From: Microbacterium paraoxydans
GTDB taxonomy: Bacteria; Actinomycetota; Actinomycetes; Actinomycetales; Microbacteriaceae
Assembly (NCBI RefSeq): GCF_019056515.1
Contig: NZ_CP064873.1
Location: 124,001 to 188,000 of the forward strand
Length of the DNA: 64,000 nucleotides
Direction of reading: 5' to 3'
The notes beneath the pieces are model-generated. The model saw nothing but the letters and a program-made list of their open reading frames with translations, was not told the DNA's origin and did not search any database. Made by a program: the position numbers and the translations under genes. Of this stretch, positions 9,476 through 40,167 are shown piece after piece. How positions within the stretch are numbered: the first letter of the stretch is position 1; each line of letters begins with the position of its first letter.

Positions 9476-9485
9476 CGTCTGCCCG

Positions 9486-9555: not shown

Positions 9556-9627
9556 ACCCCGAAGAACGACTCGGCTGGGATCGAACCACCCCCGGGCTGG
9601 TCCGGGCAGTCCCGGTCGTTCAGGTTT

Positions 9628-9710: not shown

Positions 9711-9907
9711 CGGAATCAGGAACGTCGGAATCGGAAACGTCGGCGGAAGGAACGTCGTGCATCCAGGTCGTGCACCCGGAACATCGGAACCGGGAACCGA
9801 ACGGGAAGGACGGGCATATCGGCGGACGGGAACAACTCACCCGTGACTCGACGTTCCTCATGAGCGAGACTGGGCCACGGACCGCCGCGGCCACGAGAGG
9901 GGCGAGC

Positions 9908-11344
9908 ATGACTGCTGCCGACAAGACCGACGAATACGACCTCATCGTGCTGGGCGGTGGTCCGGTCGGGGAGAACGTGGCGGACCGTGCCGTGCAGGGC
10001 GGTCTCACAGCGATCATCGTGGAGAGCGAGCTCGTCGGCGGGGAGTGCTCGTACTGGGCGTGCATGCCGTCGAAGGCGCTGCTCCGCTCGGCCCAGGCGC
10101 TCCGTGCCGCGCAGCACGTCGCCGGCGCCGCGCAGGCCGTGACCGGATCCCTCGACGTGCGCGCGGTGTTCGAGCGTCGCGACTCCTTCACGAGCAACTG
10201 GTCCGACGACGGGCAGGTGAAGTGGCTGGAGTCCGCCCACATCGACCTCGCCCGGGGGCACGGCCGGCTGACCGGCGAGCGCGAGGTGACGGTGACCGAC
10301 CAGGACGGCGGCACCCGGGTGCTGCGCGCGCGCCACACGGTCGCCATCAGCACCGGTTCGGATGCGGTCATCCCGCCGATCGAGGGTCTGCGGGAGGCCT
10401 CGCCCTGGACGAGCCGCGAGGCGACCAGCGCCGAGGAGCTGCCCGACAGTCTCGCGGTCATCGGCGGCGGCGTGGTCGCGGTCGAGATGGCCACCGCGTA
10501 CGCCGCGCTCGGCTCGTCGGTGACGCTGCTGGCGCGCAGCGGGCTGCTGGGCGGGATGGAGCCCTTCGCCGGAGAGCGGGTGGCCGACGGCCTGCGTGAG
10601 CTCGGCGTCGACGTCCGCACCGACACAGGTACGACGGCGGTGCACCGCGACGGTGAGCGGGTCACGATCACCCTCGACAACGGCGAGACGGTGACCGCGG
10701 CGGAGGTGCTCGTCGCGACCGGACGCTCTCCCCGCAGCGCCGACATCGGGCTCGAGGCGGTCGGGCTCGAGCCGGGCCGCTGGATCGAGACGGACGACAC
10801 CCTCCGCGTCCCCGGGCATGACTGGCTCTACGCCGTCGGCGACGTCAACGGCCGCGTGCTGCTGACCCACCAGGGCAAGTACCAGGCGCGCGCCGCGGGC
10901 GACGTCATCGTCGCGCGGGCGAAGGGCGACGCGGTGGACGACGCACCCTGGGGCCGTCACGTCGCCACGGCCGACCACGCCGCGGTGCCCCAGGTCACCT
11001 TCTCGATCCCGGAGGTCGGGTCCGTCGGGCTCACCGAGGCGGCGGCGAAGGACGCCGGCACCGCCGTCCGCGTCGTCGACTACGACCTCGGGTGGGTGGC
11101 GGGCGCGAGCCTGTACGAGGACGGCTTCGCCGGGCAGGCGCGCCTGGTCGTCGACTCCGACCGCGACGTCGTGATCGGTGCGACGTTCGTCGGCCCCGAG
11201 GTCGCCGAGCTCGTGCAGGCCGCGACCATCGCGATCGTCGGCGAGGTCCCGATCGCCCGACTCTGGCACGCCGTGCCCTCCTACCCCACGATCAGCGAGA
11301 TCTGGCTGCGGCTGCTGGAGGGCTACGGCCGCGACTCGGCCTGA
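9908..11344 (+). CDS. Pyridine nucleotide-disulfide oxidoreductase, atypical class I
   Basis: A 478-residue flavoprotein of the lipoamide dehydrogenase/mercuric reductase group. FAD is bound at GGGPVG (16-21), the redox pair is Cys47/Cys52 (ECSYWAC) and NAD(P) binds at VIGGGVVAVEMA. The second FAD motif is LYAVGDVNG. The C-terminal dimer motif reads SYPTISE where true class I enzymes have HPT-x-x-E: the catalytic base is replaced by Tyr459, with Glu464 kept. It is therefore unlikely to act as an ordinary lipoamide dehydrogenase, and the substrate is unknown. ATG 9908 is preferred because GAGGGG precedes it; ATG 9860 in the same frame lacks a ribosome site. Upstream lies the repeat-rich region. 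Confidence 0.85.
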   Translation: MTAADKTDEYDLIVLGGGPVGENVADRAVQGGLTAIIVESELVGGECSYWACMPSKALLRSAQALRAAQHVAGAAQAVTGSLDVRAVFERRDSFTSNWSDDGQVKWLESAHIDLARGHGRLTGEREVTVTDQDGGTRVLRARHTVAISTGSDAVIPPIEGLREASPWTSREATSAEELPDSLAVIGGGVVAVEMATAYAALGSSVTLLARSGLLGGMEPFAGERVADGLRELGVDVRTDTGTTAVHRDGERVTITLDNGETVTAAEVLVATGRSPRSADIGLEAVGLEPGRWIETDDTLRVPGHDWLYAVGDVNGRVLLTHQGKYQARAAGDVIVARAKGDAVDDAPWGRHVATADHAAVPQVTFSIPEVGSVGLTEAAAKDAGTAVRVVDYDLGWVAGASLYEDGFAGQARLVVDSDRDVVIGATFVGPEVAELVQAATIAIVGEVPIARLWHAVPSYPTISEIWLRLLEGYGRDSA

Positions 11345-11479
11345 TCCGGGCAATCCGATCCCGGTCGCGTGACGAACAGAACGCGCATTGTGTCCCAGAT
11401 TGACGACCACGCGCGCAACCCCGTGCCGGATGTCGCACCCGTCTTATACGCTCGAACCCACATCCGAGGAGGCAGGACC

Positions 11480-26739: not shown

Positions 26740-27732
26740 ATGACCCCGAACGACGCCGCGGACGCGATCCCCGACGTCGCGAGGGACGAGGCCGGCGAGA
26801 AGCTCGCCGCGGTGCGCACGCTCGGCGCCGGGTCGCCCGTCCTGGCCTTCGACGTCGGCGGGACGGACATCAAGTCGGCGCTGTTCGACGCGGAAGGGCG
26901 GGCGCTCGGCCTCCGTCGCACGCCCACCCCCACGGCCGACGGCGACCGCACCCCCGCGCTGCTCGACCGGCTGCAGGTGCTCGCCGCGCACCTCCGCGAC
27001 GAGCATCCCGACGTGACGCCGCGCGCCGCCGGGCTCGTGGTGCCGGGGATCGTCGACGCGGCCGCCGGGGTCGGCGTCTTCGCGAGCAACATGGGCTGGC
27101 GGGACGCGCCGCTGCGCGCGCTCGCCGCGGAACGTCTCGGCCTTCCCGTCGCGTTCGACCACGACGTGCGCGCCGCGAGCTGGGCCGAGCACGAGCTGGG
27201 CGGCGCGCGGGCCTACGACGACGCGGTGATCCTCGTGATCGGCACCGGCATCGCCGGCGCCCTGCTCGTCGGCGGCCGCCCCTACACGGCCGGGGGCTAC
27301 GCCGGCGAGATCGGGCACTCGCCGATCGCCGACGGACCGGTGTGCCCGTGCGGTGCCCGCGGCTGTCTGGAGGCCGTCGCCTCGGCGGGCGCCATCGCGC
27401 GCCGCTACCGGGAGGCCACGGGGACGACCCCGGACGGCGCCAAGGACGTCATCGCCCGAGCGGCCGCCGGGGATCGGGTCGCCGCCGACATCTGGGACTC
27501 GGCTCTGGACGCGCTCACCCTGTCGCTCGCGCAGCTGACCGCCGTGGTCGCCCCCGAGGCCGTGGTGATCGGCGGCGGACTGTCGCGGGCGGGCGGCGCG
27601 CTCTTCGACGAGCTGCGCACCCGCCTCGCCGCCCGCCTCAGCTTCCACCGCCTCCCCGCGCTCGTCCCCGCCGAGCTGTCCGGCAACGCGGGCCTGATCG
27701 GCGCCGCCCTTCGCGCCCGGGAGCTCGCATGA
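26740..27732 (+). CDS. ROK-family sugar kinase
   Basis: A 330-residue ROK kinase with an intact ATP site: AFDVGGTDIKSALFD (phosphate 1), GTGIAGALLVGG (phosphate 2), GEIGHSPI and the zinc cluster CPCGARGCLE. Unlike the ROK regulators at 19.8-22.2 kb it lacks an HTH. It should phosphorylate the imported sugar, probably a hexosamine or its N-acetyl form, at C6. ATG 26740 has GGAG upstream, and an in-frame ATG at 26707 overlapping the SIS gene is an alternative. Its stop overlaps the next start by four bases. Confidence 0.82.
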   Translation: MTPNDAADAIPDVARDEAGEKLAAVRTLGAGSPVLAFDVGGTDIKSALFDAEGRALGLRRTPTPTADGDRTPALLDRLQVLAAHLRDEHPDVTPRAAGLVVPGIVDAAAGVGVFASNMGWRDAPLRALAAERLGLPVAFDHDVRAASWAEHELGGARAYDDAVILVIGTGIAGALLVGGRPYTAGGYAGEIGHSPIADGPVCPCGARGCLEAVASAGAIARRYREATGTTPDGAKDVIARAAAGDRVAADIWDSALDALTLSLAQLTAVVAPEAVVIGGGLSRAGGALFDELRTRLAARLSFHRLPALVPAELSGNAGLIGAALRARELA

Positions 27733-28673
27733 TCCTCACCGTCACCCCGAACCCCGCTCTCGACCTCACCTGGCACGTGGAGCGCCTCGTGGAGGGAGGG
27801 ACGCACCGCGCCGACACCGGGGCGTCCCGCGCCGGCGGCAAGGGTCTCAACGTCGCGCGGGTCGCGCATGCCGAGGGGGCCTCCGTCCTCGCGCTGACCA
27901 CGGCCGGCGGTCCGGTCGGCGCGGAGTTCGCCGCGGAGCTCACGGCCAGCGGGGTGCCCCATGTGCTCGTGCCCGTCGCGGCCGACACGCGTCGCAGCAT
28001 CGCCCTCGTCGACGAGGCCGCGGGCGACACCACGATCGTCAACGAGCGAGGGGTGAACCCGACCGATGCCGAGTGGGGCGGGCTTCTTGCGGAGGTCGTC
28101 GACCGGCTTCCCGGCGCCGCGGTCCTCGTCGTCTCAGGGAGCCTTCCGCCCGGGGCGCCGGAGTCGCTCGTGCCGATGCTCGTCGCGGTGGGTGCGGACG
28201 CCCGCGTCCCGGTGATCGTCGACACCTCCGGCCCGGCCCTCCTGCGCGCCGCCGACGCCGGGGCGACCGTGCTCAAGCCCAACGCCGCGGAGCTCGCCGA
28301 GGCCACCGGGATCGCCGACCCCGTCGAGGACGCGCGCTCGCTGCTGGCCCGCGGTGCCGAGCTCGTGCTCCTGTCGCTCGGTGCCGACGGCATGCTCGCG
28401 GTCACCGCGACCGATCTCCTGCACGCCCGACTCGACGAGCCGCTCTCCGGCAACCCGACCGGCGCCGGAGACGCCGCGGTCGCGGCCTGCGCCGTGCTCA
28501 CCGCGGAGGGCGAGCGCGACCCCGAGGTCATCCTCCGTCGCGCGACCGCGTGGTCGGCAGCCGCCGTCCTCATGCCGCTCGCCGGCGACATCTCCCCCCG
28601 CTGGCGCGCGCTCGAGGAGCAGCTTCGCGTCTCCCGCCCCGACCCCGCCTCCTTCCGGAAGGACCCTTCGTGA
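27729..28673 (+). CDS. PfkB-family hexose-phosphate kinase (1-phosphofructokinase / tagatose-6-phosphate kinase type)
   Basis: A 314-residue ribokinase-fold enzyme. TVTPNPALDLTW and RAGGKGLNVARV form the substrate-binding N-terminus, VSGSLPPGAP is the 1-phosphofructokinase-type motif, and NPTGAGDAAVA carries the catalytic Asp. Next to a class II ketose-bisphosphate aldolase, phosphorylation of tagatose 6-phosphate to the 1,6-bisphosphate is the most coherent role; fructose 1-phosphate kinase is the alternative. It overlaps both neighbours by four bases. Confidence 0.82.
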   Translation: MILTVTPNPALDLTWHVERLVEGGTHRADTGASRAGGKGLNVARVAHAEGASVLALTTAGGPVGAEFAAELTASGVPHVLVPVAADTRRSIALVDEAAGDTTIVNERGVNPTDAEWGGLLAEVVDRLPGAAVLVVSGSLPPGAPESLVPMLVAVGADARVPVIVDTSGPALLRAADAGATVLKPNAAELAEATGIADPVEDARSLLARGAELVLLSLGADGMLAVTATDLLHARLDEPLSGNPTGAGDAAVAACAVLTAEGERDPEVILRRATAWSAAAVLMPLAGDISPRWRALEEQLRVSRPDPASFRKDPS

Positions 28674-29602
28674 CCCTCGTCTCCGCTCGGGAACTCGTCT
28701 CCGCGGCTGCCACCGCCGGCACCGGCATCGGCGCGTTCAACGTCATCCACCTGGAGACCGCGGAGGGCCTCGTGCGGGCCTCCGCGCTCGCCCAGCTCCC
28801 CGTGATCCTGCAGATCTCGCAGAACTGCGCCGACTACCACGGCGGTCTGGAGCCGGTCGCCCTCGCGACGCTCGCCGCGGCACGACGCGCGGAGACCCCG
28901 GTGGCGGTGCACCTCGATCACGCGGAGCGGCCGGAGCTCGTGGACGAGGCCGTGGCCCTCGGCTTCGGCTCGGTCATGTTCGACGGCGGCGCGCTGCCCT
29001 ACGACGAGAACGTGGCGGTCACCGCCGAGGTCGCCGCCCGGGCCCGCGCGGCGGGGGTGTACGTGGAGGGCGAGCTCGGCGAGGTGGGCGGGAAGGACGG
29101 CGCCCACGCCCCCGGTGTGCGCACCGATCCGGACGAGGCGCGGGCGTTCGTGGCCGCCACCGGCGTGGACGCCCTCGCCGTGGCCGTGGGGTCGTCGCAC
29201 GCCATGACCGACCGCACCGCCTCCCTCGACCTCGACCTCATCGGCCGCCTGCGTGCGGCTCTGCGTGGCGCCGCCGCGGACGGGACCGACGTGCCCCTCG
29301 TGCTGCACGGCTCGTCCGGAGTGGCCGACGCCGTGATCGCCGATGCCGTGCGCGCCGGGATGACGAAGGTCAACGTCTCCACCCACCTCAACGGCTTCTT
29401 CACCCGGGCGGTCCGCGAGGTGCTCGCCGCCGACGACCGTCTCGTCGACTCCCGCAAGTACCTCGCTCCCGCCCGCGCCGCCCTCGCGGACGAAGCGGCC
29501 CGGATGCTGCGACTGTTCGCCCTGCTGCCGTCGCAGAATCCCGCTCCGGTCGCAGAGGTTCCCGGCACGGCTGCGACCTCGACGCGAAACGACGACCGGT
29601 GA
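28670..29602 (+). CDS. Class II ketose-bisphosphate aldolase (tagatose/fructose type)
   Basis: A 310-residue zinc-dependent aldolase. IGAFNVIHLETAEGL is the usual N-terminus, VAVHLDHAERPELVDEA carries zinc and catalytic residues (HLDH), YVEGELGEVGGKDG the conserved Glu, and VLHGSSG plus KVNVSTHLN the remaining metal and phosphate contacts. Cleavage of tagatose 1,6-bisphosphate (or fructose bisphosphate) to two trioses would end the pathway encoded by this operon. GTG 28670 overlaps the kinase stop and has GGAAGGA upstream. Confidence 0.85.
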   Translation: MTLVSARELVSAAATAGTGIGAFNVIHLETAEGLVRASALAQLPVILQISQNCADYHGGLEPVALATLAAARRAETPVAVHLDHAERPELVDEAVALGFGSVMFDGGALPYDENVAVTAEVAARARAAGVYVEGELGEVGGKDGAHAPGVRTDPDEARAFVAATGVDALAVAVGSSHAMTDRTASLDLDLIGRLRAALRGAAADGTDVPLVLHGSSGVADAVIADAVRAGMTKVNVSTHLNGFFTRAVREVLAADDRLVDSRKYLAPARAALADEAARMLRLFALLPSQNPAPVAEVPGTAATSTRNDDR

Positions 29603-30375
29603 AGCGCGCGGCCCGACTGCACGCGATCCTCGACCTCCTCGCGGCGGACGGAGAGGTCACGGTGGAGGAGCTGGTGGAGCGGTTCGGTGCCTCCCCGGCC
29701 ACCACCCGCCGCGACCTCGACTCCCTCGCCGAGCAGCGGCTGCTCACCCGCACGCACGGCGGTGCCGTGGCCCAGACCGTCGCCTATGAACTGCCGCTCC
29801 GCTACAAGAGCCATCTCCGCACGCACGAGAAGGAGAGCATCGCGCAGACCGCGGCGGGGCTCGTCACCCCCGGCATGGTAGTCGGCCTCTCCGGAGGCAC
29901 GACGACCACCGCCATCGCGGCCGCGCTCGCCGCCCGCGAGGACCTGGCGGCGGAGGGCGGGATCACGGTGGTCACCAATGCCGTGAACATCGCCGCCCAG
30001 CTCGCGACCCGGCCGGAGATGAAGGTGGTCGTCACGGGCGGGGTCATCCACTCGCGCACCTACGAGCTCGTCGGCCCGTTCGTCGAGCAGCTCCTCCGCG
30101 GGGTGCGGCTGGACCTCGCGTTCATCGGCGTGAACGGGATGGACGCGGCAGCCGGGGCGACCACGCAGGACGAGCGCGAGGCGGCGGTGAACCGGATGAT
30201 GGCGGAGCGGGCGCGGCGGGCGGTCGTCGTGACCGACGGCAGCAAGCTCGGGGCCGAGGCCTTCTCCACCGTCGGCGGGGCGGAGCTCTTCGCCACGGTC
30301 ATCACGGATCGAGGGGCCGACGGGGCCGCCGTCGACGCGCTGCGCGCTGCGGGCTACACGGTCCTGCTCGCCTGA
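29599..30375 (+). CDS. DeoR/GlpR-family transcriptional regulator
   Basis: A 258-residue repressor. The N-terminal HTH is VTVEELVERFGASPATTRRD with the signature LTRTHGGAV. The C-terminal sensor is a sugar-isomerase-like fold with GLSGGTTTTAIAAAL and GVNGMDAAAGATTQDEREAAV. Members sense sugar phosphates, which fits control of this catabolic operon and possibly of the divergent transporter. GTG 29599 overlaps the aldolase stop (GTGA), so it is the last gene, followed by a terminator. Confidence 0.88.
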   Translation: MKRAARLHAILDLLAADGEVTVEELVERFGASPATTRRDLDSLAEQRLLTRTHGGAVAQTVAYELPLRYKSHLRTHEKESIAQTAAGLVTPGMVVGLSGGTTTTAIAAALAAREDLAAEGGITVVTNAVNIAAQLATRPEMKVVVTGGVIHSRTYELVGPFVEQLLRGVRLDLAFIGVNGMDAAAGATTQDEREAAVNRMMAERARRAVVVTDGSKLGAEAFSTVGGAELFATVITDRGADGAAVDALRAAGYTVLLA

Positions 30376-30402
30376 GGCCTCAGGCCGCACGCGGACGCCC
30401 CG

Positions 30403-30435
30403 AGGGCCTCGGCGTCCCCAGATCGCCGAGGCCCT
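30403..30435 (+). terminator. Terminator of the sugar catabolic operon
   Basis: The perfect 12-base arms agggcctcggcg (30403-30414) and cgccgaggccct (30424-30435) have a nine-base loop, 28 bases after the DeoR stop. The rest of 30436-30631 holds no recognisable gene. A small repeat, gattctga/tcagaatc (30603-30610 and 30632-30639), overlaps the end of the convergent CHAT gene and may stop its transcript. Confidence 0.75.
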
Positions 30436-30631
30436 GCGGGAGCATCGCGGCTGCATACCGCGACGCTCCCGGAGCAGATGGTGTCCGTCTCGTCTTCCCG
30501 CTCCCCAGCGGCGTTTCCCCAGAACCGACGGCGCCTCCCTCGTGCCTCTCCCTTCGAGGCCTTTCGCTCGACACCTTCCGAAGAACAGGAGAAGGCGGGT
30601 GCGATTCTGATACCCCGATCCGGGAAAAAAG

Positions 30632-33076
30632 TCAGAATCCGTTGCCGTGACACTGGAACGGGGCGGAAACCCCCGTCCTGAGCGCGGCGCTCGCCAGGGC
30701 GTCGGCGGGGGACGCGCCGCCGGCGAGGCCCTCGTGGACCGCCGTCAGGAGCTCGCACGCGTCGTCGTCCGGCACCGTGACGGGAGCCGCGATCACCGCC
30801 TCCGCGCCCGCGTGCAACCACACGCGCGTCATGCCCAGGGCCTCCTCGCCCCAGCGCACGGAGGACCGACCCAGCTCGCACGCCGAGAGGATCACGGTCC
30901 GCGGCACCCGGTCGATGAGGTCGACGTCGTAGCCGAAGAGCACGCCGTCGGCGAGTTCGAACCCGGAGAACAGCGGATTGTCGACCGCGTGACGCCCGTG
31001 CGCGGCGATATGGAGCACGTCGACGGAGGCCGCCAGCGCGGTGACGGCGCTCACGGTCGCGGTGGTGTCCTGCAGCGTCCGGGTCGTTCCCCGTCCCGCC
31101 CACGACTCCGCCGCGCGCTGGACCTCTTCCGCCGCCCGCGGCACGCGCGGTCCCGCCGCGAACCCGACGCTCGGGGCTGAGGGAGCAGAGGCCTCCCCGT
31201 CGAACCAGCGCGAGACCGAGGTCGCGAGGGTGAACGGCACGCCGTGCATGCCAGGGAGCATGGCCCACGGCACCCCGCCGAGGATCCCGGGAACGGTGAT
31301 CACGAACCGCGCGGCGCCCGCGGCGGCCCGGCGCATCGGCCCGAGTAGCTCGTCGTCGAGGACAGCGAGACGCGCCGTCAGAGCGCGCGCGGTCACCGGC
31401 CCCATCGCGCCGTCCCGGGTGAGGGCGGCCATGTCGAGGTCGGCGCGCAGGCCGTCGAGAGCGGCCCGCACCCGCGGCCAGGACAGGTCGACGAGGGTCG
31501 CGCCGTCCGGCTGCACCACGACCCCGTGCAGTCCGGTGACGGTGTAGACGTAGGCGAGCACCGCGGTATCGGCGGAGAGGAGCGCGGTGGTCTCCGCCAG
31601 TGTTCGGCGCTCCCTCGTCGCCCCGGAGCCGGTGGCCGACCACTGCCGCTCGCGCACCCGGTCGCGGAGCGCGCGCACGGTGGGGTCGGTCGTCCAGTCC
31701 GCCCCCGCGAGGTCGGCGCGCAGCATCCGGAGCTCGGCGAGGTCGGCGGCGAGGGCGTCATCGTGCGGGGGACGGACCGGGGCGACCTGCTGACTGAGGT
31801 GCCGGGCGCGCTCGGACCACTCGAAGAGCGTCGCCGGGTCGCGGCGGCGGACGGCAGCGGCGAGTCCCGTGAACACGAGGTCGCTGGCATGCATGGCGAC
31901 GGAGGCCTGCAGGTCGAGGGCGCCGAACGAGCGCTGCCATGCCGACAGCAGGTCGAGCCCCGTGGCCGCGGCGCGCAGCGCCTCCCCGTCGCGACCGCGT
32001 CCGGCGGCGCGGGCCGCGCGCACCTCCTGCGCGCGGAGTCGGAGCGGCGTCGGGGCCGAAGCGGGGATGCGGGGGAGGCGGCCGGTGCCGTCGCGGCGGG
32101 CGCTCAACCGCAGGGCCGTGGCCTCGGTGCGGAAGCCGCTCCGGTCGAGCTCCTGCGCCACCTGCTCCCACGCGGCGGCGTCGAGCGGGCGATCGGGCCG
32201 GATCCGCTGTCGGGCTTCCAGCTCCACCGCCGCGGCGCGGGCCGCCCAGCCGCTGCTGCCGAGGGCGGTGAAGCGGCGGGCGGCCGTCCTCGCCGCCCGC
32301 GCCGCGGCTCGCGGATCGTGGCGGACGAGTGAGCGGGCGAGGTGGAACTCCGCCTCCCCACGGGCCTGGCGCATCCGCTGGGCACCGAACTGCACGGCCA
32401 CGCGGGCGAGCAGCGCCTCCGCCTCGGTCGTCAGCCCGGCGTCGCGGAGCACCTCGGCGCGGTCGAGGTCGCTGATGGCGGTGGCGAGGGCGCTGGTGGC
32501 GGCGAACGTCGGCCGGGATTCGGCCATCAGGCGCAGCGCCGACACGAGGTCGCCGCCGAGGAGTGCGGCATAGCCGAGGTTGTGCGTGGCCTCGGCGAGC
32601 GAGTCCCGTTCGTCGTGCGCCTCGTAGATCGAGATCGCACGGCGGAGATCGGCCATGCAGGTGTCCAGCTGATGGCGCTGCATCCGCACCACCGCCCGGT
32701 TCATCAGGCAGTTGGCGAGGGCGGGGGTCTCGGTCCCGGTCGCGGCCAGGGCGTCGATCGCGGTGGTCAGGCTCGCCTCGGCCTCCTCCATCCTGCCCCC
32801 GTGCATGAGGAGGGCGCCGAGCTGCCCGCCGAGGAGGGCGACCGTCTCGGCCTGCAGCCCGTCCCTGGCCAGCGCCTCCCGGCACAGCGCCTCCGCGGCC
32901 GCGGGCTCACCGGTCTGCGCGAGCACGTAGGCGGCCGTCCCGTCGATGCGGGCGCGGAGGTCGGCGTCGTCGGTGCGGGCGGCGGCCTTCTCCAGTTCCC
33001 GCCTGGCACGGGTGAACTGCCGGGCGTTGGCCGCCTCGACGCCGCGTCGGTGCAGCGCGCTCGCGGACAGGGGCAT
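30632..33076 (-). CDS. TPR-CHAT caspase-like protease
   Basis: An 814-residue protein. Residues 1 to about 430 are helical repeats of TPR type (ARRELEKAAARTDDADLRAR, LREALARDG-like units, LAEATHNLGYAALLGGDL). The C-terminal 250 residues form a CHAT domain: a conserved core VITVPGILGGVPWAMLP, catalytic His693 in LHIAAHGRH and nucleophile Cys733 in VILSACELG. There is no signal peptide, so it acts in the cytoplasm. CHAT proteases are activated by partner proteins and cleave specific targets, for example in type III-E CRISPR and gasdermin systems. Here it is the last gene of an operon with a subtilisin-like protease and a sigma factor. The target is unknown. Confidence 0.85.
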   Translation of the reverse strand: MPLSASALHRRGVEAANARQFTRARRELEKAAARTDDADLRARIDGTAAYVLAQTGEPAAAEALCREALARDGLQAETVALLGGQLGALLMHGGRMEEAEASLTTAIDALAATGTETPALANCLMNRAVVRMQRHQLDTCMADLRRAISIYEAHDERDSLAEATHNLGYAALLGGDLVSALRLMAESRPTFAATSALATAISDLDRAEVLRDAGLTTEAEALLARVAVQFGAQRMRQARGEAEFHLARSLVRHDPRAAARAARTAARRFTALGSSGWAARAAAVELEARQRIRPDRPLDAAAWEQVAQELDRSGFRTEATALRLSARRDGTGRLPRIPASAPTPLRLRAQEVRAARAAGRGRDGEALRAAATGLDLLSAWQRSFGALDLQASVAMHASDLVFTGLAAAVRRRDPATLFEWSERARHLSQQVAPVRPPHDDALAADLAELRMLRADLAGADWTTDPTVRALRDRVRERQWSATGSGATRERRTLAETTALLSADTAVLAYVYTVTGLHGVVVQPDGATLVDLSWPRVRAALDGLRADLDMAALTRDGAMGPVTARALTARLAVLDDELLGPMRRAAAGAARFVITVPGILGGVPWAMLPGMHGVPFTLATSVSRWFDGEASAPSAPSVGFAAGPRVPRAAEEVQRAAESWAGRGTTRTLQDTTATVSAVTALAASVDVLHIAAHGRHAVDNPLFSGFELADGVLFGYDVDLIDRVPRTVILSACELGRSSVRWGEEALGMTRVWLHAGAEAVIAAPVTVPDDDACELLTAVHEGLAGGASPADALASAALRTGVSAPFQCHGNGF

Positions 33077-33124
33077 CCGTCCAGGATGCCGTGCCGGAGC
33101 GGTCGTGCGGAAGGGTGCGAGGGG

Positions 33125-34696
33125 TCAGAGCCGCTCGTGCGGCGTCGGCAGGGACTTCAGCACGGCGGCGACGGCCTTCCCGGCGACGGCGGGCTTCACC
33201 CCCGCGGCCGGGACGGCGCCGAGCTGGGCCGCGACCCGACCGGCGATGTACGGAGCGGCGAAGGAGGTGCCGCTCCACACCGCGAAGCCGCCGCGGTAGT
33301 CGTCCGGGTCGAGCGTCTCGCGCGGCAGCCCGTCGATGTCCGCGCGGGTCGCGGCCTGCGCGCCGCCGACGAAGGCGGGCGAGGTGCTGACCACGGCGGC
33401 GCCCGGGGCGTACACCTGCACCCAGGGGCCGACGTTCGAGAACAGGGCGACGGAGTGCGCCGACGGGTTCAGGGCGCCGACCGACACGTGCGGAGCGCCG
33501 TCGTCGGACGGCAGCCCGTTGTCGGCGCCGGGCCACGGCCACAGCGAGGCGGGGAACGAGGGCCGATCGATCGCGTCGTTGCCGGCCGAGCAGACGACCA
33601 CGCAGCCGAGCTCCCTGGCCTTCGCGAGCAGCTCGTACAGAGTCCTGCTGAAGAGCCCGTCGGTCGGGGTCTCGTGGTAGTAGCTGAGGGAGAGGTTGAG
33701 CACGTCGATCGGGAAGCCGGTCGTCGGATCCTCGCGGTGCCGCCGCAGCAGTTCCACGACCTGCGCCACGGTCTCCAGGAGCGTGCTCTCGTCGACCACC
33801 CCGAGCGCGCCGGCGACGCGGATGGAGAGGATGTCGGCGTCCGGGGCGGCCTGACGCACGAGGCCCGCGATGAAGGTGCCGTGACCGGCCACCGCGTCGA
33901 TCTCGCCGTCGAGCTGCCCGTACAGGTCGGGGTAGCGTTCGGGGTCGGCGTCGTCCGTGAAGCCCACGGGGACGCCGTCGAGTTCGACGTGCCGGGTGAC
34001 GATGTCCGACGGCAGCCAGGCGTGCTCGCCGCAGCCGGTGTCGAGGATCGCCACGACCGGTCGTCGTCCGCGCTTCGGAGCGGCGGCTCGAGCCGGAGCG
34101 GGGCCGAGCCAGGTGACCGGCTGCCGGGCCCCGCGTCCGGGCTCCAGGTAGTCGTCGCTGCCGCCTCCGCCGGGAGCGGCACCGCGGACGGGATTCGTCC
34201 GGGTGAACGGGTTGGTCCGGGTGAACGGGTTCGTCCGGGTGAACGGGTTGAGTCCGACCGGATCGATCGACAGCACGTGCTCCAGGCTGGTCCGCGGCAT
34301 GGTCGAGCGCGACAGTCGGCGCGCGCGCTGCAGCACCCGCCAGGCGTCGGGCGCCACGGGGGACTCGCCCCTGGTCGGCTCATCCGGCGTGGTCAGGCGC
34401 GCCCGCAGGAACCCCGCGACACCCGGGACGAGCTCGCCGTTCCCGATCTCTCGCTCCGGCGACTCCAGCTCCAGCCGCCAGCCGAAGGAGTCCGCGGCAT
34501 CCCTCAGGGCGCGCAGCTCGCGGTCGTACGCCTCCTCCTCGCCGAGGGCACGCGTGATGAGCAGCCGCTCGGGCAGGTACGCGGTGGGGAACGCGCGGAT
34601 CCCATCCACCGGTTCCGTGCTGGGGTCGAGGGCGGTGCCGCGGCGGATCGATCCCTCCGCGCGGTCCTGCCAGGTCCATCCCTGGGGCTGCTCCAT
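33125..34696 (-). CDS. Cytoplasmic S8 (subtilisin-like) serine protease
   Basis: A 523-residue S8 protease with the complete triad: Asp219 (VAILDTG), His272 (AGHGTFIAG) and Ser478 (WSGTSFAAP), plus oxyanion Asn373 (CSAGND). There is no signal peptide or transmembrane anchor, unlike the secreted or mycosin types. The unique 145-residue N-terminus is followed by a tandem NPFTRT repeat (residues 150-169) and a Gly-rich linker before the catalytic domain; the N-terminal part may be a self-inhibitory region. ATG 34696 has GAGAGGATG upstream. The CHAT gene starts 48 bases downstream on the same strand, suggesting a two-protease cascade. Confidence 0.88.
   Translation of the reverse strand: MEQPQGWTWQDRAEGSIRRGTALDPSTEPVDGIRAFPTAYLPERLLITRALGEEEAYDRELRALRDAADSFGWRLELESPEREIGNGELVPGVAGFLRARLTTPDEPTRGESPVAPDAWRVLQRARRLSRSTMPRTSLEHVLSIDPVGLNPFTRTNPFTRTNPFTRTNPVRGAAPGGGGSDDYLEPGRGARQPVTWLGPAPARAAAPKRGRRPVVAILDTGCGEHAWLPSDIVTRHVELDGVPVGFTDDADPERYPDLYGQLDGEIDAVAGHGTFIAGLVRQAAPDADILSIRVAGALGVVDESTLLETVAQVVELLRRHREDPTTGFPIDVLNLSLSYYHETPTDGLFSRTLYELLAKARELGCVVVCSAGNDAIDRPSFPASLWPWPGADNGLPSDDGAPHVSVGALNPSAHSVALFSNVGPWVQVYAPGAAVVSTSPAFVGGAQAATRADIDGLPRETLDPDDYRGGFAVWSGTSFAAPYIAGRVAAQLGAVPAAGVKPAVAGKAVAAVLKSLPTPHERL
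34198..34251. repeat. In-frame 18-base tandem repeat in the S8 protease gene
   Basis: Three near-identical units of the form tccgggtgaacgggttsg encode NPFTRT repeated in the linker ahead of the catalytic domain. Such perfect short repeats can expand or contract by slippage without breaking the frame. Confidence 0.85.
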
Positions 34697-34746
34697 CGGT
34701 CATCCTCTCCGTGGGCATCGCCGGCGACGGCGCCGGCGATGCGGGG

Positions 34747-35202
34747 TCACAACTCGAACTGCGGGGTCTCCAGGGTGCGGGTCTCATCGCCGACCGTCGC
34801 GGTCAGGCGCACGCGGCTGAGCCCAGACGGCACCTCGTCGAACACGAATCGGCCGGTCTCCGCCGGGGTCGTGCGGCGCTCGCGCTCGCCCTGCAGCAAC
34901 AGGATCTCCGCGGCGGCGGTGTCCACCCAGCCGTCGATCCGCCGTCGCCCGGACGCGGTCGTCGTGACGTGGAGGAGGATGCTCGTGCTGCCGTCGCTGA
35001 ACTGCAGGGTGAGGGCGTCGGTCTCGCCGCGGACCGCGCCGAGCTGGCCTTCCACGAGCGTGAGCAGAGCGTACTCGCGGTTGAGCCCGTCCGCGGCGAC
35101 CGCGGCGACCATCCGGTCGATCAGCCCGGCCGGGACGGGATCGACCTCTCTCCAGAGGCTGCGCAGGCGGGCGAACAGCCGGGCGTCGTCCTCATCGCTC
35201 AT
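34747..35202 (-). CDS. Small operon partner between sigma factor and S8 protease
   Basis: A 151-residue protein without a confident family. The N-terminal helix (LWREVDPVPAGLIDRMVAAVA) resembles the start of small proteins that accompany ECF sigma factors, where it could contact the sigma factor. The C-terminal half is beta-rich (VTTTASGRRRIDGWVDTAAA, GRFVFDEVPSGLSRVRLTA) like a small carboxypeptidase-regulatory or Ig-like sandwich. There is no membrane segment. It overlaps the sigma gene by four bases (ATGA) and lies 50 bases before the protease, so it may be a soluble anti-sigma or adaptor. That role is inferred from position. Confidence 0.6.
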   Translation of the reverse strand: MSDEDDARLFARLRSLWREVDPVPAGLIDRMVAAVAADGLNREYALLTLVEGQLGAVRGETDALTLQFSDGSTSILLHVTTTASGRRRIDGWVDTAAAEILLLQGERERRTTPAETGRFVFDEVPSGLSRVRLTATVGDETRTLETPQFEL

Positions 35203-35822
35203 GATCGTCCCTCCGTCCGGGTGGCCGGGGCGTCGAGGAGGTCGCGGAGCTTCGCGAGGCAGCGGCTGCGGGTCGGGCCGATGCTGCCGACCGGCATGGA
35301 GAGGTCGCGGGCGAGGCGCGCGTAGTCCGGGCGGTCCTCGAAGGCGATCACCCGGAGCAGGCGCTGACAGCGCTCGGCGAGGCGGCGGACGGCGGCCCAG
35401 AGTCGGCGGTTCTCGTCGTCGAGCGCGGCGTGCTCCTCGGCGGACGCCTGCTCCGGAAGGAGGGCGTCCAGGTCGTCGGATTCCGCGGTGTCGACGCGAC
35501 CGACGGCCTTGCCGACCTTCCAGGCCTCGCGGCGGGCGGTGGTCGTGAGCCAGGCCGAGACGGCACGCGAGTCGGCGATGGCGCCGTGGCCGCGCACAAG
35601 CTGGAGCCAGGTCGTCTGCACGACGTCTTCCGCGAGGGTGCGTTCGAGGCCGTAGGCGCGCACGACGTGCCAGAGCACGGGCGTCATCAGCCGCACCAGG
35701 TCGTCCATCGAGCGGCCGTCGCCATCGCGCCACGCATCGAACAGGTCCGCGGCGCGTTCCCAGCGTGCGCGCCCGTCGTCGGATGCCGGATCGAAGGCGG
35801 CGCCGGGGGCACCGTCGATCAT
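35199..35822 (-). CDS. ECF-like RNA polymerase sigma factor
   Basis: A protein of about 207 residues with a region 2 (DDLVRLMTPVLWHVVRAYGL and AEDVVQTTWLQLVRG) and a region 4 helix-turn-helix (ERCQRLLRVIAFEDRPDYARLARDL then MPVGSIGPTRSRCLAKLRDLL). This arrangement fits an extracytoplasmic-function-type sigma factor. ATG 35822 is the most plausible start by homology, though it lacks a clear ribosome site and longer readings to 35888 stay open. It is the first gene of the sigma/partner/S8/CHAT operon and may drive that operon itself. A perfect ttgtgatcacag-type dyad lies just upstream at 35832-35841. Confidence 0.8.
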   Translation of the reverse strand: MIDGAPGAAFDPASDDGRARWERAADLFDAWRDGDGRSMDDLVRLMTPVLWHVVRAYGLERTLAEDVVQTTWLQLVRGHGAIADSRAVSAWLTTTARREAWKVGKAVGRVDTAESDDLDALLPEQASAEEHAALDDENRRLWAAVRRLAERCQRLLRVIAFEDRPDYARLARDLSMPVGSIGPTRSRCLAKLRDLLDAPATRTEGRS

Positions 35823-35941
35823 GAAGCCCATTGTGATCACAGCTACCAGGAGCACGGCAAGGGCTCGGTGATACATGTCGCCGTCCAAGAATTCCGGCAG
35901 CCCGATCCGTGGTGCGACGACGCCCTCGCTAGCGTGGAGGG

Positions 35942-36160
35942 GTGATCGCTCTCGTCGTCGTGCTGTTCCTCAACGCCGGTTTCAACGTGCTCGTCTGGCC
36001 GCGGTTCTACAGCCGCGTCGCGAAGGACCCGCGTGCCAGGGACGAGAACGGCAAGGCCACCCCGTTCCTCCGCGTGCACGTCATCCTCATCGCGATCGCG
36101 CTGGTGCTGGCCGTGGCCTCCGCGGCGGCGGGGATCACCGTGCTCGCGCTCGCGCCATGA
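35942..36160 (+). CDS. SCO4848-family small membrane protein
   Basis: A 72-residue protein with two hydrophobic helices (IALVVVLFLNAGFNVLVWP and VHVILIAIALVLAVASAAAG) separated by a charged loop (FYSRVAKDPRARDENGKATP), matching the actinobacterial SCO4848 family of unknown function. GTG 35942 follows a -10 tagcgt with a six-base gap, so the transcript is probably leaderless; the ggagg between them is too close to serve as a ribosome site. It is divergent from the sigma factor operon. Confidence 0.8.
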   Translation: MIALVVVLFLNAGFNVLVWPRFYSRVAKDPRARDENGKATPFLRVHVILIAIALVLAVASAAAGITVLALAP

Positions 36161-36364
36161 ATCGGTGGTCTCCTATCGGCTCTGATGTGACGGCGACCGA
36201 CATCGATCGCGACCACTGTCCCGGGTGAGCCGCCGGCGAGATGTGTTCAGCTCTACGCGTTAGACGTCTTTGAACAAGACGAGAATCGGGAGAATCGGCA
36301 CGGCGGTTGTTGTCGCAGGATTGGTTGCTGAAGGGTGATTCGTGCGGATCGGTAGCCTGGGAGC

Positions 36365-36898
36365 ATGCCGGAACTCTTCCGAAGTGCCGCCGGAAGCTTG
36401 CAGGAAGCCGGGTGGACGTTTGAGCCGCCGACGTCGATGGAGAACGGCGTTCCCTCCCCGCTGCGCGCGGCACCCGAAACGGTGATCCGCTGGGTGTCCT
36501 CGTTCTCACTCCTGTCGAGCTCAGACGAGACGGTGTGGTTCTTGTCCCGCGACGACTACTCGACCGGCGCGGAGGGGGCGTTCGCGTGGAACGAGTGTGA
36601 ACTGCTGAGCATCCAGGCTGCGACGACGGATGATGAGGCGGTCGCGGTCTCCCGTTTCTGGAGGCGCCACGCACCCATCCTGCTTTCCGTTCGCAACGGA
36701 TACGAGTACCTGGCGGTGCGAGACGACGGAGCAGTCGTCCACGGTTCCGAGCCAGAGTTCGAAGAAGCGGTCGTCGTGTTCTCTCACTTCGAAGATCTGC
36801 TGAGGTACACCACCGCGCGGCCGGCCCGGCGCGACCAGGTCGTCGACAGCTTGCTGTTCGGTGCCGCCGACGTCACTGGCCCGACGCCAGGCGACTAG
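36365..36898 (+). CDS. SUKH/SMI1-KNR4-like protein (possible orphan immunity protein)
   Basis: A 177-residue soluble protein. The C-terminal half (WRRHAPILLSVRNGYEYLAV followed by RDDGAVVHGSEPEFE) resembles the SUKH superfamily, many of whose members are immunity proteins against secreted toxins. No toxin gene is beside it. Its upstream 200 bases and its coding region are noticeably less GC-rich than the neighbours, suggesting acquisition. ATG 36365 follows a -10 tagcct with a six-base gap. The gene ends 15 bases before the convergent MFS gene. Function is inferred from distant similarity. Confidence 0.6.
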   Translation: MPELFRSAAGSLQEAGWTFEPPTSMENGVPSPLRAAPETVIRWVSSFSLLSSSDETVWFLSRDDYSTGAEGAFAWNECELLSIQAATTDDEAVAVSRFWRRHAPILLSVRNGYEYLAVRDDGAVVHGSEPEFEEAVVVFSHFEDLLRYTTARPARRDQVVDSLLFGAADVTGPTPGD

Positions 36899-36913
36899 CG
36901 CAGTGTCTCCACC

Positions 36914-38212
36914 TCAGTCCCCCTCGTACCGGGCGGCGTGCGCGGCCCAGCGAGACTCGACCGGGAGGCTGCGGAGGGCGCGGTTCCCGATCGCGAGGGC
37001 GGCGGCGACCACGCACAGGGCCGCACAGATGAGGATGGTGCCCTGTCGTCCGAGCCCGGCCAGGCCGAAGCCGGCGATGAGCGGGGCGAGCGGCATCGCG
37101 CCCATCGCGAGGACCCCCATGGCGCTGTTCGCGCGTCCCAGCAGACGTGACGGCGTGGCCACCATGAAGTAGCCCATCATCCCGGCGTTCAGGGCGGGGA
37201 CGAGGAGCACCGTAGCACCGAGGACGGCGGCGACGGTCCACGGTGCCGACGCGAACGACAGCACGACGGCGCCGAGGGCGACCACTGCGAGCCCGCCGAT
37301 CGTGAGCACGCCCGCCGGGATCCGGGGCACGAGGAGCGGGGCGACGATCGCGCCGACAAGCATCACGGCGCCGATGGCCGCGCTGACGGTTCCGATGAGG
37401 AGTTCGGAATGGCCCGCCTGCTGCAGCGCATAGACGGCCGTGGTGATCGCGGCGTTGAAGCCGAGGTTCACGATGGTCATGATGAGCATGACGCCGCCGA
37501 GGTCGGGGCGGGACAGCAGCCAGCCGAAGCCCTCGCGGAACTCCCGCCAGGCGTTCGGGCGCGCGGGGGGCGCGCCGCCGTCGTCCTCGTCCAGAGCGCC
37601 GACGTCGGCGATGCCCGCGCGCCGGACCTGTCGCCCGAGGAGCCCGGCGGTCACGGCGGCGACGAGGTGGCACAGGGTCATGACCGCGCCGACGAGCCAG
37701 CCGCCCACCCCGAGGAGCAGGCCGCCCAGCGGGCCGCCGGCGAGCTGGAGGGCCGCATCGCGCCCCTGGTTCGCGGCCTGCGCGCGCCCCATCGCGTCGT
37801 CCGGGACGATCTCCTTCAGCGCGCTCTCGCCGGCGACGTCGAAGAGGCCGCTCCGCGCGGCCAGCAGCACGTCGATCACGAGGAGGGTCGCGAAGGTGAG
37901 GGCGCCGCCGAGGGCGAGGAGGGTGAAGGCCCCGGCCAGCACGATCCCCAGAATCGAGCCGACGAGCATGAGCACGATGCGCCGGTGCCGGTCCGCGATG
38001 ATCCCGCCCACGAGGGTGAGCAGCACCCGCGCCACCATGCCCGCCCCCGCGATGATGCCGGCCTGTGCGGGGTCGTTCGTGATGACGAGCGCGAGGAGCG
38101 GGACGGCGAACCCGAAGAGCGCCGAGGCGAGCCCCTTGCTCGTGTCGCTGACGAGCCAGGTGAGGTAGCGCGTGTTCTGCCACAGGCGGTGCGGCGTGGT
38201 CGTCGTGCTCAT
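36914..38212 (-). CDS. MFS transporter (DHA3-like exporter)
   Basis: A 432-residue major facilitator with 12 predicted helices. The motif A region is GGIIADRHRRIVLMLVGS between helices 2 and 3, and the conserved DVAGESALKEIVPDDAMGRA loop is typical of DHA3-type macrolide/drug exporters. ATG 38212 is probably leaderless: a -10 TATCGT (38224-38219) ends six bases upstream. It is divergent from an ArsR-type regulator that shares its 70-base promoter region, an arrangement that usually means repression relieved by the exported compound. Confidence 0.85.
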   Translation of the reverse strand: MSTTTTPHRLWQNTRYLTWLVSDTSKGLASALFGFAVPLLALVITNDPAQAGIIAGAGMVARVLLTLVGGIIADRHRRIVLMLVGSILGIVLAGAFTLLALGGALTFATLLVIDVLLAARSGLFDVAGESALKEIVPDDAMGRAQAANQGRDAALQLAGGPLGGLLLGVGGWLVGAVMTLCHLVAAVTAGLLGRQVRRAGIADVGALDEDDGGAPPARPNAWREFREGFGWLLSRPDLGGVMLIMTIVNLGFNAAITTAVYALQQAGHSELLIGTVSAAIGAVMLVGAIVAPLLVPRIPAGVLTIGGLAVVALGAVVLSFASAPWTVAAVLGATVLLVPALNAGMMGYFMVATPSRLLGRANSAMGVLAMGAMPLAPLIAGFGLAGLGRQGTILICAALCVVAAALAIGNRALRSLPVESRWAAHAARYEGD

Positions 38213-38282
38213 GGCTCGACGATAGTTCCGCAAGAATAATTGCGCAACTGTTCGTGCGCATTTGCGTGACTAGGATCGGGGA

Positions 38283-38873
38283 ATGGCTGACGACGCGGAG
38301 AAGACCTCTCGGGAGGACGCCGCCTTCATGACCTCGGCCATGCTCAAGGCCTACTCGCACCCGCTGCGCCGCCAGATCCTCCGCCTCATCGCACGCCGCG
38401 GTTTCCTGCGCGCCGCGGACATCGCCGGTGCGCTCGACGTGCCGGCCAACAGCGCCAGCTTCCACCTGCGGGTGCTCGCCGAGGCGGGGCTCATCGAGGA
38501 GGCTCCGGAGCAGGCCAGAGACCGCCGCGACCGCGTGTGGACGGGACGCAAGGGGGCCCTCACCGTCGGCGGTCCGGAGAATCCGGTCGCGGACGAGGCG
38601 CTCGGCGATGCGGTGGTGGCCGCGCTCGCAGAGGACCACGTCGACCTGCTGCGCCGGGTGGTGGCCTGGACGCCCGAGTACGTGTCCGGTCGCACCGCCG
38701 AGGTGCATGCGTCGTTCGTGCAGCGCACCATCCGACTGACCGAGGCCGAGTTCGACGACGTGATGCACAAGATCGATGACGTGCTCTCCGCCGCCGACGA
38801 CGCGCACGACGACACCGACCCCGCGGGCCGTCACTGGCAGCTGGACATCGTCGTCGCCGACGACACCATCTGA
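38283..38873 (+). CDS. ArsR-like winged-helix transcriptional regulator
   Basis: A 196-residue regulator with an N-terminal winged helix: LKAYSHPLRRQILRLIARRG, LRAADIAGALDVPANSASFH and LRVLAEAGLIEE, then a DRRDRVW wing. The C-terminal 100 residues are helical and acidic, with no obvious metal-binding Cys motif. ATG 38283 follows a -10 taggat with a six-base gap (leaderless). The promoter region shared with the divergent MFS gene contains repeated TGCGCA words (tgcgcaactgttcgtgcgca, 38241-38260) that could be its operator. Confidence 0.8.
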   Translation: MADDAEKTSREDAAFMTSAMLKAYSHPLRRQILRLIARRGFLRAADIAGALDVPANSASFHLRVLAEAGLIEEAPEQARDRRDRVWTGRKGALTVGGPENPVADEALGDAVVAALAEDHVDLLRRVVAWTPEYVSGRTAEVHASFVQRTIRLTEAEFDDVMHKIDDVLSAADDAHDDTDPAGRHWQLDIVVADDTI

Positions 38874-38874
38874 C

Positions 38875-39993
38875 TCACTCGTCTTCGTCGTCGAGGCGCT
38901 CGCCGCTGAGGATGAGGATGCGGCGGAGGTGCATCGCCGTGAGCACGCCCGGTCCCATCGAGCTGCGCACGTCGAACGTGCGGTCGTCGACCTTCTCCAG
39001 CAGGAGCCGGATCGCCCGCGCCGCCTCCGCGCGGCGGCGGTGCGCCGCGCTCGAGGCGGGGTCGTCCTCCGCGATGACGTCGGCGACGGCGTGGCAGGCC
39101 GCCGACAACGGCTCGGGCAGCGCCGGATCCAGGGGCATGGCCGCCGGACGCTTCCAGATCGTGTCGGCCGTCGCGTCGGCGATGTCCCGGATGAGGTGCG
39201 CGATGCGGTCGAGCGTGGAGAGCTGCTCGTGGATGTGGGCGGTGCCCGCATGCCGGCGTCGCGCGCGCGGGTTGTAGCGGACGCTCTCGTCGGCCTCGGC
39301 CAGGGCGGCACGGAGGTCGGCGGTGGTCTCGGCGAGCGCTGCGGCATCGTCGGCCCACTGTGCGGTCTCCGGCGGCCAGGACTCCGAGACCGCGGAGCCG
39401 ATGTCGTGGAGGTGCCCGGCGAGCTGTCGTCGGAACTCCTCCACCCGCGCCTCGGCCGATCCGATGAGCGGGGCGGGGGCGAAGAGGAGGTTCACCACCA
39501 GACCGATGACGATCCCGACCCCCATCTGGGCGAGGTAGCCGAGGGAGTAGTCGTCCGCGTTCTGACCGCCGATGATGAGCACGAACAGCGCCGCCATCGG
39601 GACGTACTCCTTGCCGACGCCGAACCAGCCGGTGCCGGAGACGAGGACGCCGAGGCCGACCACGAGGGGGATCGTCCACCACGTCGGCCCGACCGTGAGC
39701 ACGATCAGCGCGGCCAGACCGATGCCGGTGGCCAGACCGAACAGGGTCTGCAGGCTCGACCGCATGGATCCCATGAGCGTGGGGTACATGCTCACGAGCG
39801 CGCCCAGGGGAGCGTAATACGGGTACTCGTCGGTGACCCCCGGCATGTGCGGCGCGATCGTCCACGCGAGCCCGACGGCGAGTGCTGTCTTGGCCACGAG
39901 GAGCAGACGAGCGGGGCGGACGGCCTCGCGGACGGTGCGGGCGAGGTACGAGCGGCGTTCGCGGACGCGCAGGCGCGAGAGATCGGGCGTCAC
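38875..39993 (-). CDS. FUSC-family membrane protein
   Basis: A 372-residue protein of the FUSC/aromatic acid exporter type. Six N-terminal helices include KTALAVGLAWTIAPHMPG, YAPLGALVSMYPTLMGSMRS and GVGIVIGLVVNLLFAPAPL, followed by a cytoplasmic helical domain of about 190 residues. GTG 39993 has GAGGATGAC upstream, and a reading from 40146 adds a Pro/Arg-rich peptide and is rejected. Related proteins export aromatic acids, but the substrate here is unknown. Its stop nearly meets the stop of the convergent ArsR gene. Confidence 0.8.
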   Translation of the reverse strand: MTPDLSRLRVRERRSYLARTVREAVRPARLLLVAKTALAVGLAWTIAPHMPGVTDEYPYYAPLGALVSMYPTLMGSMRSSLQTLFGLATGIGLAALIVLTVGPTWWTIPLVVGLGVLVSGTGWFGVGKEYVPMAALFVLIIGGQNADDYSLGYLAQMGVGIVIGLVVNLLFAPAPLIGSAEARVEEFRRQLAGHLHDIGSAVSESWPPETAQWADDAAALAETTADLRAALAEADESVRYNPRARRRHAGTAHIHEQLSTLDRIAHLIRDIADATADTIWKRPAAMPLDPALPEPLSAACHAVADVIAEDDPASSAAHRRRAEAARAIRLLLEKVDDRTFDVRSSMGPGVLTAMHLRRILILSGERLDDEDE

Positions 39994-40167
39994 GTCATCC
40001 TCTCCTCGCGGCGGTCGGGTGGTCCTGTCCGGCGAGGATAGGGCCGCAGGCGGCGTGCGGCCACCGGGTTGCCCCGGCTCCGGTCGCCGGGTAGAGGGCG
40101 GCTGGACGCGGATGCCGCGACCGCGCGGGGTGCGCGGCCGCGGCATCCGCGGATTCCGGACCGTCCC

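Follow-up and report, generated by a model that had tools for sequence, protein, structure and literature searches.

Layout of the locus

We analysed a 64,000-nucleotide stretch of the Microbacterium paraoxydans genome (contig NZ_CP064873.1, positions 124,001 to 188,000; hereafter the window), in which four minus-strand genes at positions 30632–35822 form an operon. They encode an ECF-type sigma factor (sigma), a small protein (small), a subtilisin-like protease of the S8 family (S8) and a TPR-CHAT protease (CHAT). The genes and their parts, in window coordinates, are as follows.

35199–35822, minus strand: sigma, ECF-type, 207 amino acids (TIGR02937 and Sigma70_r2)
34747–35202, minus strand: small protein, 151 amino acids (overlap with sigma, structural model, co-variation)
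33125–34696, minus strand: S8 subtilisin-like putative zymogen, 523 amino acids (PF00082, structural model, fold comparison)
34268–34585, minus strand: predicted S8 prodomain, residues 38–143, beta-alpha-beta-beta-alpha-beta (fold match from residue 37–42 on)
34190–34249, minus strand: repeat array in S8, residues 150–169, three copies of NPFTRT followed by NP
33206–34069, minus strand: S8 catalytic domain, residues 210–497 (D219, H272, N373, S478)
30632–33076, minus strand: TPR-CHAT protease, 814 amino acids (PF12770 and TPR matches)
30677–31369, minus strand: CHAT catalytic region, residues 570–800 (H693, C733)

The initial annotation of this DNA described the four genes as co-directional and partly overlapping. 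The first part stands, but the overlap is limited to the sigma/small junction, where 4 nucleotides (ATGA) are shared, while the other two junctions are gaps of 50 (small-S8) and 48 (S8-CHAT) nucleotides. Third-position guanine-plus-cytosine content is 0.90–0.93 in each gene. CHAT is the sole CHAT match of its genome and, by eye, the neighbours of the operon are sugar-metabolism, regulator and transporter genes.

Sigma scored 54.6 bits with TIGR02937 (cut-off 42.9) and also matched Sigma70_r2; S8 scored 80 bits with PF00082, and CHAT 95 bits with PF12770 at residues 570–800, preceded by weak TPR matches. For the small protein we obtained only a sub-threshold match to CarboxypepD_reg (17.1 of 32.3 bits). 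The domain scan placed an ATPase domain in none of the four proteins. S8 residues D219, H272 and S478 and the oxyanion N373 are invariant across 58 aligned S8 proteins, CHAT H693 and C733 are invariant in 24 same-genus proteins, and the corresponding His and Cys columns are invariant in 16 diverse ones, so the catalytic triad and dyad are intact, as first proposed. The nearly invariant C-terminal tail of CHAT within the genus, PFQxHGxGF, lies at 30632–30660. The highest 19-residue hydropathy over the four proteins is 1.58 (in CHAT); as no stretch reaches 1.6, nothing points to a signal peptide or a membrane helix in any of them, which agrees with the earlier statement that neither protease has a secretion signal.

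Two gene pairs within a conserved module

Named genomes were searched with only the S8 alignment as query, and we analysed the top 80 among at least 539 relatives. All four genes lie on one strand in 73 of these 80 loci; sigma was found in 77, the small gene in 78 and CHAT in 76. Among the 73 full loci the order is S8-sigma-small-CHAT in 45 and sigma-small-S8-CHAT in 27, and one locus has an extra S8. Sigma and small overlap by 4 nucleotides in 48 of 77 loci. The hosts belong to Microbacterium, Ornithinimicrobium, Knoellia, Arthrobacter, Tessaracoccus, Nocardioides, Terrabacter, Humibacillus, Nakamurella and other genera. Seven loci are incomplete. Three of them (L096, L103, L166) are cut by contig ends, and in L167 sigma is missing only within the fetched stretch. 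The remaining three (L146, L161, L169) have no CHAT nearby; they were rejected as genuine CHAT-less exceptions, as all three genomes carry a distant CHAT gene.

In the genus scan, CHAT was present in 30 of 59 genomes and the small protein in 29, the two sharing the same genomes except for G003, where CHAT sits on a 4.6-kb contig and small was not found. Loci were examined in 27 of the 29 other CHAT-bearing genomes (G003 and G023, with short contigs, were left out), and 26 of these 27 carry sigma-small-S8-CHAT on one strand. A search of the phylum, with 9 candidates scored per genome, gave 17/396, which is a lower bound. Among 72,556 plasmid records the small protein matched one, an 11.85 Mb record of Nonomuraea gerenzanensis with an S8 match adjoining. 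In this species (NZ_LT559118.1, 5031677–5033621) the S8-type and small-type matches adjoin where no gene is listed; the module therefore probably reaches Streptosporangiales.

Thus, the four genes form a conserved module across Actinomycetota. The initial annotation had treated them as one unit, and the neighbourhood search supports this: with all four co-located in 73/80 loci, they are anything but rare neighbours in relatives.

The syntenic 19-kb stretches of two loci, L052 and L055, are mostly 81–96% identical (in 300-base steps). Between 7142, where S8 starts, and about 11100, close to the end of CHAT (8924–11416), identity drops to 47–63%; over the next kilobase it is back to 81–91%. The corresponding proteins are 99% (sigma), 95% (small) and 48% (S8) identical, with 49% for the first 500 residues of CHAT and 76% for its last 130; the repeat units in S8 are NPHSKT and NPFKG. 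Among 206 pairs of loci with a sigma identity of at least 0.80, S8 tracks the N-terminal part of CHAT with r 0.68, compared with 0.37 for the C-terminal part and 0.20 for small. In the 34 of those pairs with S8 below 0.60, the mean identities are 0.85 for sigma, 0.80 for small, 0.52 for S8, 0.52 for the N-terminal part of CHAT and 0.81 for the C-terminal part. Seven pairs combine a similar S8 with an unlike CHAT N-terminal part, all of them involving L163, whose CHAT start is mis-called (1,245 amino acids). Judged from these identities, sigma and small form a conserved pair, next to which S8 and most of CHAT form a hypervariable cassette. In L056, the S8 catalytic domain shares about 70% identity with the window group, the CHAT TPR part 47% and small 42%; there S8 seems to have moved alone. 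A cassette this variable next to a switch that stays constant points to recognition under diversifying selection and might offer a route to self/non-self or anti-parasite sensing.

Linkage alone could explain the association of S8 with the CHAT N-terminal part in the order sigma-small-S8-CHAT. It persists, however, for S8 and the TPR part in the other order, where S8 adjoins sigma and lies away from CHAT. In a distance test on S8-sigma-small-CHAT loci (36 of 48 used; 12 dropped by length, motif or duplicate filters), which removes shared ancestry only partly, the partial r between S8 and TPR is 0.59 (p 0.001), versus 0.05 for the CHAT catalytic region, -0.14 for sigma and -0.08 for small. Partial correlations of sigma with small (0.34), the CHAT catalytic region (0.33) and TPR (0.34), and of small with TPR (0.37), all have p 0.001; that of small with the CHAT catalytic region is 0.21 (p 0.016). 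In a finer split, the S8 catalytic domain and the N-terminal TPR give the largest between-gene value (0.47). Across 18 Microbacterium loci (L040–L057), sigma correlates with small at r 0.87 and with the S8 catalytic domain at r 0.00. In the order S8-sigma-small-CHAT, the TPR part of CHAT is thus the only part, of those tested, with which S8 co-varies.

The pairs can also come apart physically. Four g80 genomes (L085, L086, L088, L092) carry sigma-small with neither CHAT nor S8 in the 19-kb stretch, and in two of these four, G144 and G373, CHAT and S8 are neighbours on a contig separate from that of sigma-small. L058, in genome G032, reads sigma-small-CHAT with no S8 in between, and the genome holds only a generic S8 hit (E 8e-4). 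The sigma-small and S8-CHAT pairs can therefore be unlinked, and S8 can be missing. The g89 loci L079 and L081 show S8-small-CHAT-small-S8-CHAT followed by sigma-small, or the same minus one small. These double modules (L079:5644–17402 and L081:6240–17402) comprise two S8, two CHAT, two to three small genes and one sigma, and the two S8 of L079 differ in repeat unit (HPLYDG and PFTSGG types).

Two loci have insertions between S8 and CHAT. In L038 (4237–8360) about 4.1 kb separate them, with opposite-strand frames that by eye resemble ABC-transporter genes; CHAT there should need its own promoter, and no CHAT start codon was found by the script. In L033 (7373–8657) the insert is 1.3 kb and, by eye, apparently holds a small gene encoding a secreted protein.

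The initial annotation had proposed a self-amplifying cascade in which S8 could activate CHAT; spelled out, this would be an anti-phage or stress death system in which CHAT, cut by S8, is the executioner protease and sigma amplifies the operon. The joint variation of S8 and the CHAT N-terminal part speaks for this, a hypervariable cassette fits an arms race, and the presence of the module is patchy (30/59 same-genus genomes). Known defence systems include proteases of the CHAT and of the S8 type; craspase is one such case (PMC10028731). Yet sigma, small and CHAT had no match in PADLOC, S8 had only generic ones, and no defence genes were seen beside the operon in the window (by eye; PADLOC was not run on the flanking genes). 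Furthermore, G032 does without an S8 of the module family, and no death effector is known. Only one partial CHAT match (29% identity over half the query) was found among 50,697 phage records, and none of the 23 S8 matches in plasmid records covers 80% of the query. We consider this cascade rather unlikely, and a defence role of the operon, like activation of CHAT by S8, is conjectural, whereas an association of the two proteases gains support from the co-variation and the unlinked CHAT-S8 pairs. A defence island or mobile element is not supported either, given the blank PADLOC results for sigma, small and CHAT and the few, partial matches in phage and plasmid records.

The repeat array of the S8 protease

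In the structural model, S8 looks like a subtilisin zymogen with an inhibitory-type prodomain, and the repeat array is a disordered segment between the prodomain and the catalytic domain. An array is present in 107 of 114 distinct S8 proteins, 81 of these showing no amino-acid difference between neighbouring copies; the detection test found none in the other 7. Between neighbouring copies we counted 748 synonymous and 119 non-synonymous base differences (random expectation, 25% synonymous), a count biased against non-synonymous differences since arrays were detected by protein similarity. With so many synonymous differences, the copies are not recent duplicates, and recent duplication was rejected as the origin of the repeats. 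For the NPFSRT group, recurrent gene conversion is an unlikely cause too, as eight loci have the same Pro codons (CCG/CCC/CCG) in copies 1–3. Selection holds the copies alike at the protein level, although the unit itself differs between lineages. We found 54 different units of 5–9 residues, 41 of them six residues long (for example NPFTRT, NPYGST, NPHSKT, HPLYDG, PYYAGV, GYWGGVG and VGQWGS). Phe, Tyr, Trp or His occurs in 53 of the 54, Gly or Pro in all and Cys in none.

The position of the array is also constrained. It starts 10 (44/91) or 6 (22/91) residues past a conserved prodomain His, and the first Phe, Tyr or Trp follows at 12 (46/91) or 7 (24/91) residues. In subtilisin BPN', self-cleavage takes place after a Tyr about as far from the last prodomain strand, which places the array where a self-processing site should be. 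By this analogy, the array looks like a self-processing site in tandem. It could instead be a mere spacer, or a sticky linker that serves no particular partner, as might be expected of a disordered segment rich in Gly and Pro that 7/114 S8 proteins lack. However, a spacer would hardly require copies alike at the protein level despite synonymous divergence, or fixed start offsets, and we regard this explanation as distinctly doubtful.

Regression of the repeat unit on the other parts gave different partners in different sets. Outside Microbacterium the unit follows TPR (beta 0.74, p 0.002) and the S8 catalytic domain (0.41, p 0.01), and in the full set the CHAT catalytic region (0.50, p 0.002) and the S8 catalytic domain (0.45, p 0.012). 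The full-set result could be taken to favour a reverse order of events, in which CHAT senses the signal and cuts the repeat linker of S8, and the freed S8 is either the effector or cuts small. The array lies exactly between the S8 prodomain and the catalytic domain, as such a linker would. Nevertheless, S8 co-varies with TPR and not with the CHAT catalytic region, and the units share no common cut-site residue except an aromatic or His (53/54). Thus, we find the reverse order hard to credit.

A possible sigma switch and its relation to known systems

The model of the small protein has helices at residues 3–20 and 27–37, a poorly predicted stretch at 39–60, which we take as a flexible linker, and a beta-sandwich at 64–145. 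At least 1,784 relatives were recovered among 7,996 candidates scored, and the named ones among the 120 listed are nearly all "hypothetical protein". No convincing solved relative was found, and there was no Csx30 among 14 sequence matches in the Protein Data Bank (PDB) up to E 5. A scan of 20 members found no peptidase domain, only the regulatory-like beta-sandwich. A co-fold of sigma and small, to be based on a translated read-through of the two genes of L098 aligned with sigma-only and small-only rows, was dropped: the small-only rows have only 9–19% identity to the read-through, with no invariant column, and were judged misplaced. Sigma/anti-sigma gene pairs are often translationally coupled. 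The initial annotation had suggested that the small protein is a sensor or an anti-sigma factor; its association with sigma is upheld by the gene overlap and strong co-variation, and the anti-sigma role is presumed. We thus presume, from the sequences and the model, that small is a cytoplasmic anti-sigma partner of the ECF sigma factor.

A different account exists for the ECF54 sigma group. According to the review PMC8999054, its gene context, mainly in Actinobacteria, has a carboxypeptidase, a subtilase and a CHAT protein, and proteolytic control was proposed. There would be no anti-sigma; the proteases would keep the system off by degrading sigma, and the third protein would be a carboxypeptidase. 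Besides being in print, this proposal suits the co-variation of sigma with the CHAT catalytic region (0.33) and TPR (0.34). On the other hand, the small protein shows only a beta-sandwich of regulatory type, its scanned members lack a peptidase domain, S8 does not co-vary with sigma (-0.14), and in many loci translation of small is coupled to that of sigma. In our view, it is very unlikely to hold here.

The explanation we lean towards, albeit tentatively, is a sigma switch under protease control. It would consist of two pairs inherited together, the conserved sigma-small pair and the hypervariable S8-CHAT pair, and the signal would pass from S8 to CHAT (via TPR), to small and to sigma. In the resting state, small would hold sigma and S8 would be held by its own prodomain. 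The junction repeats would be tandem copies of the S8 self-processing site, of a docking peptide read by the CHAT TPR part, or of both. Once triggered, S8 would engage CHAT through the repeat region and the TPR part, active CHAT would cut small, and the freed sigma would transcribe the operon. Every interaction and cleavage, the direction S8-CHAT-small-sigma and the autoregulation are what we infer. The case of Csx29 shows that a TPR-CHAT protease can relieve an anti-sigma (PMC10028731).

Several observations weigh against this switch. Sigma and small also co-vary with TPR (0.34 and 0.37; p 0.001), and the correlation of small with the CHAT catalytic region is weaker, which lends little specific support to cutting of small by CHAT. 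The repeat unit does not follow TPR in the full set (0.14, p 0.34), and within Microbacterium the regression shows nothing significant. With such mixed regressions, the match of TPR and repeat is a lead rather than a proof. The model of small is only fair (pTM 0.58), and no known anti-sigma matched small in the PDB sequence matches or in a fold comparison covering residues 54–151. Pfam Inhibitor_I9 was not among the matches of 14 S8 members. Since G032 lacks an S8 of the module family, CHAT may work without one, and the extra small copies beside S8-CHAT without sigma in g89 suggest that small may also bind CHAT. Finally, in the other two of the four g80 genomes the split pair is less clear: in G365, CHAT and S8 lie only at the ends of two contigs, and G441 shows neither convincingly.

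A variant of the switch, which we regard as unlikely, would be a peptide-coded relay. The junction repeats would be self-processing sites in tandem, and autolysis of a single S8 molecule would set free several copies of one lineage-specific peptide of 5–9 residues in the cell. TPR would read this peptide as a second messenger, firing CHAT and then, via small, sigma. Peptide and TPR would be swapped as matched allotypes, in the manner of self/non-self or arms-race systems. RRNPPA receptors (Rap, PlcR) are a known case of intracellular short peptides being read by TPR domains, in strain-specific pairs with peptides from an exported precursor; by analogy, the peptide here would come instead from the linker of the S8 protease.

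Upstream of sigma we noted one further feature.

35830–35874, minus strand: conserved upstream element GTATCA-N7-CTTGCC-N2-GCTCCT ... TGTGATCACAAT, presumed promoter/leader

The first block of this element occurs without mismatch upstream of sigma in 26 of the 48 Microbacterium-type loci scanned and has no match there in the other 22. The genome search for a regulon returned one exact copy of the element and three other sites with 3 mismatches; the control with the reversed element also gave 2, so no further targets were found. Upstream, the reading frame of sigma continues without a stop as far as an ATG at 35876 (window 35823–35876), which would give a hydrophobic N-terminus if used. As the DNA at 35823–35876 is conserved at third codon positions too, a promoter or leader fits better than coding sequence. 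We therefore kept the sigma start at 35822 and consider the upstream stretch more likely a promoter/leader.

Should the proposed switch hold, it would give a sigma module that is widespread in Actinobacteria a wiring open to testing, and control of sigma factors by TPR-CHAT proteases would not be confined to CRISPR systems. The repeats are an unusual case, with selection holding alike the copies of a unit that is lineage-specific, and they name a peptide and a domain to test.

Among known systems, the anti-phage system IetAS shares an S8 peptidase domain with the operon, but the IetS match is weak (22 of 900 bits in NCBIfam, 25.4 bits in PADLOC) and none of the four genes encodes an ATPase. 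Neither is S8 a mycosin of type VII secretion: it scores 72 of 278.75 bits with TIGR03921, below the cut-off, and has no hydrophobic segment. CalpL is reportedly a Lon-type protease fired by cyclic oligoadenylate, with protease, target and neighbouring sigma encoded together; that system has neither S8 nor CHAT.

A parallel in mechanism is the type III-E system with Cas7-11, in which, according to PMC10028731, the TPR-CHAT protease Csx29 cuts Csx30, an inhibitor of an ECF sigma factor (CASP-sigma). Likenesses to this craspase are a TPR-CHAT protein with catalytic His and Cys, an ECF sigma factor, a partner gene and a model of anti-sigma relief. The differences are an S8 zymogen, as we predict it, in place of Cas7-11 and a small protein of 151 amino acids against at least 565 in Csx30. 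There was no Cas7-11 among the frames at 27000–40000 (by eye) or in the gene lists of the 19-kb relatives, though no dedicated CRISPR search was made.

In gene content, the operon resembles the ECF54 context: an ECF sigma factor with subtilase, CHAT and "carboxypeptidase" genes is found here too, in 73/80 loci. The four-gene neighbourhood is therefore already known from PMC8999054, and the "carboxypeptidase" label fits only the weak regulatory-like domain of small. The initial annotation mentioned neither this ECF54 description nor the repeats, the prodomain or the hypervariability. As far as the accessible part of that paper goes, its account assumes no anti-sigma, and the repeats, the prodomain, the cassette, the split of the pairs and the S8-less form are absent from it. 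In the open literature, judged partly from titles, we found no paper on the repeat array or the S8-CHAT cassette. As far as literature searching reaches, what is new is the array at the predicted prodomain junction, the cassette, the co-variation of S8 with TPR, the division into two pairs, the S8-less form and the interpretation of the "carboxypeptidase" as a partner of sigma without enzymatic function.

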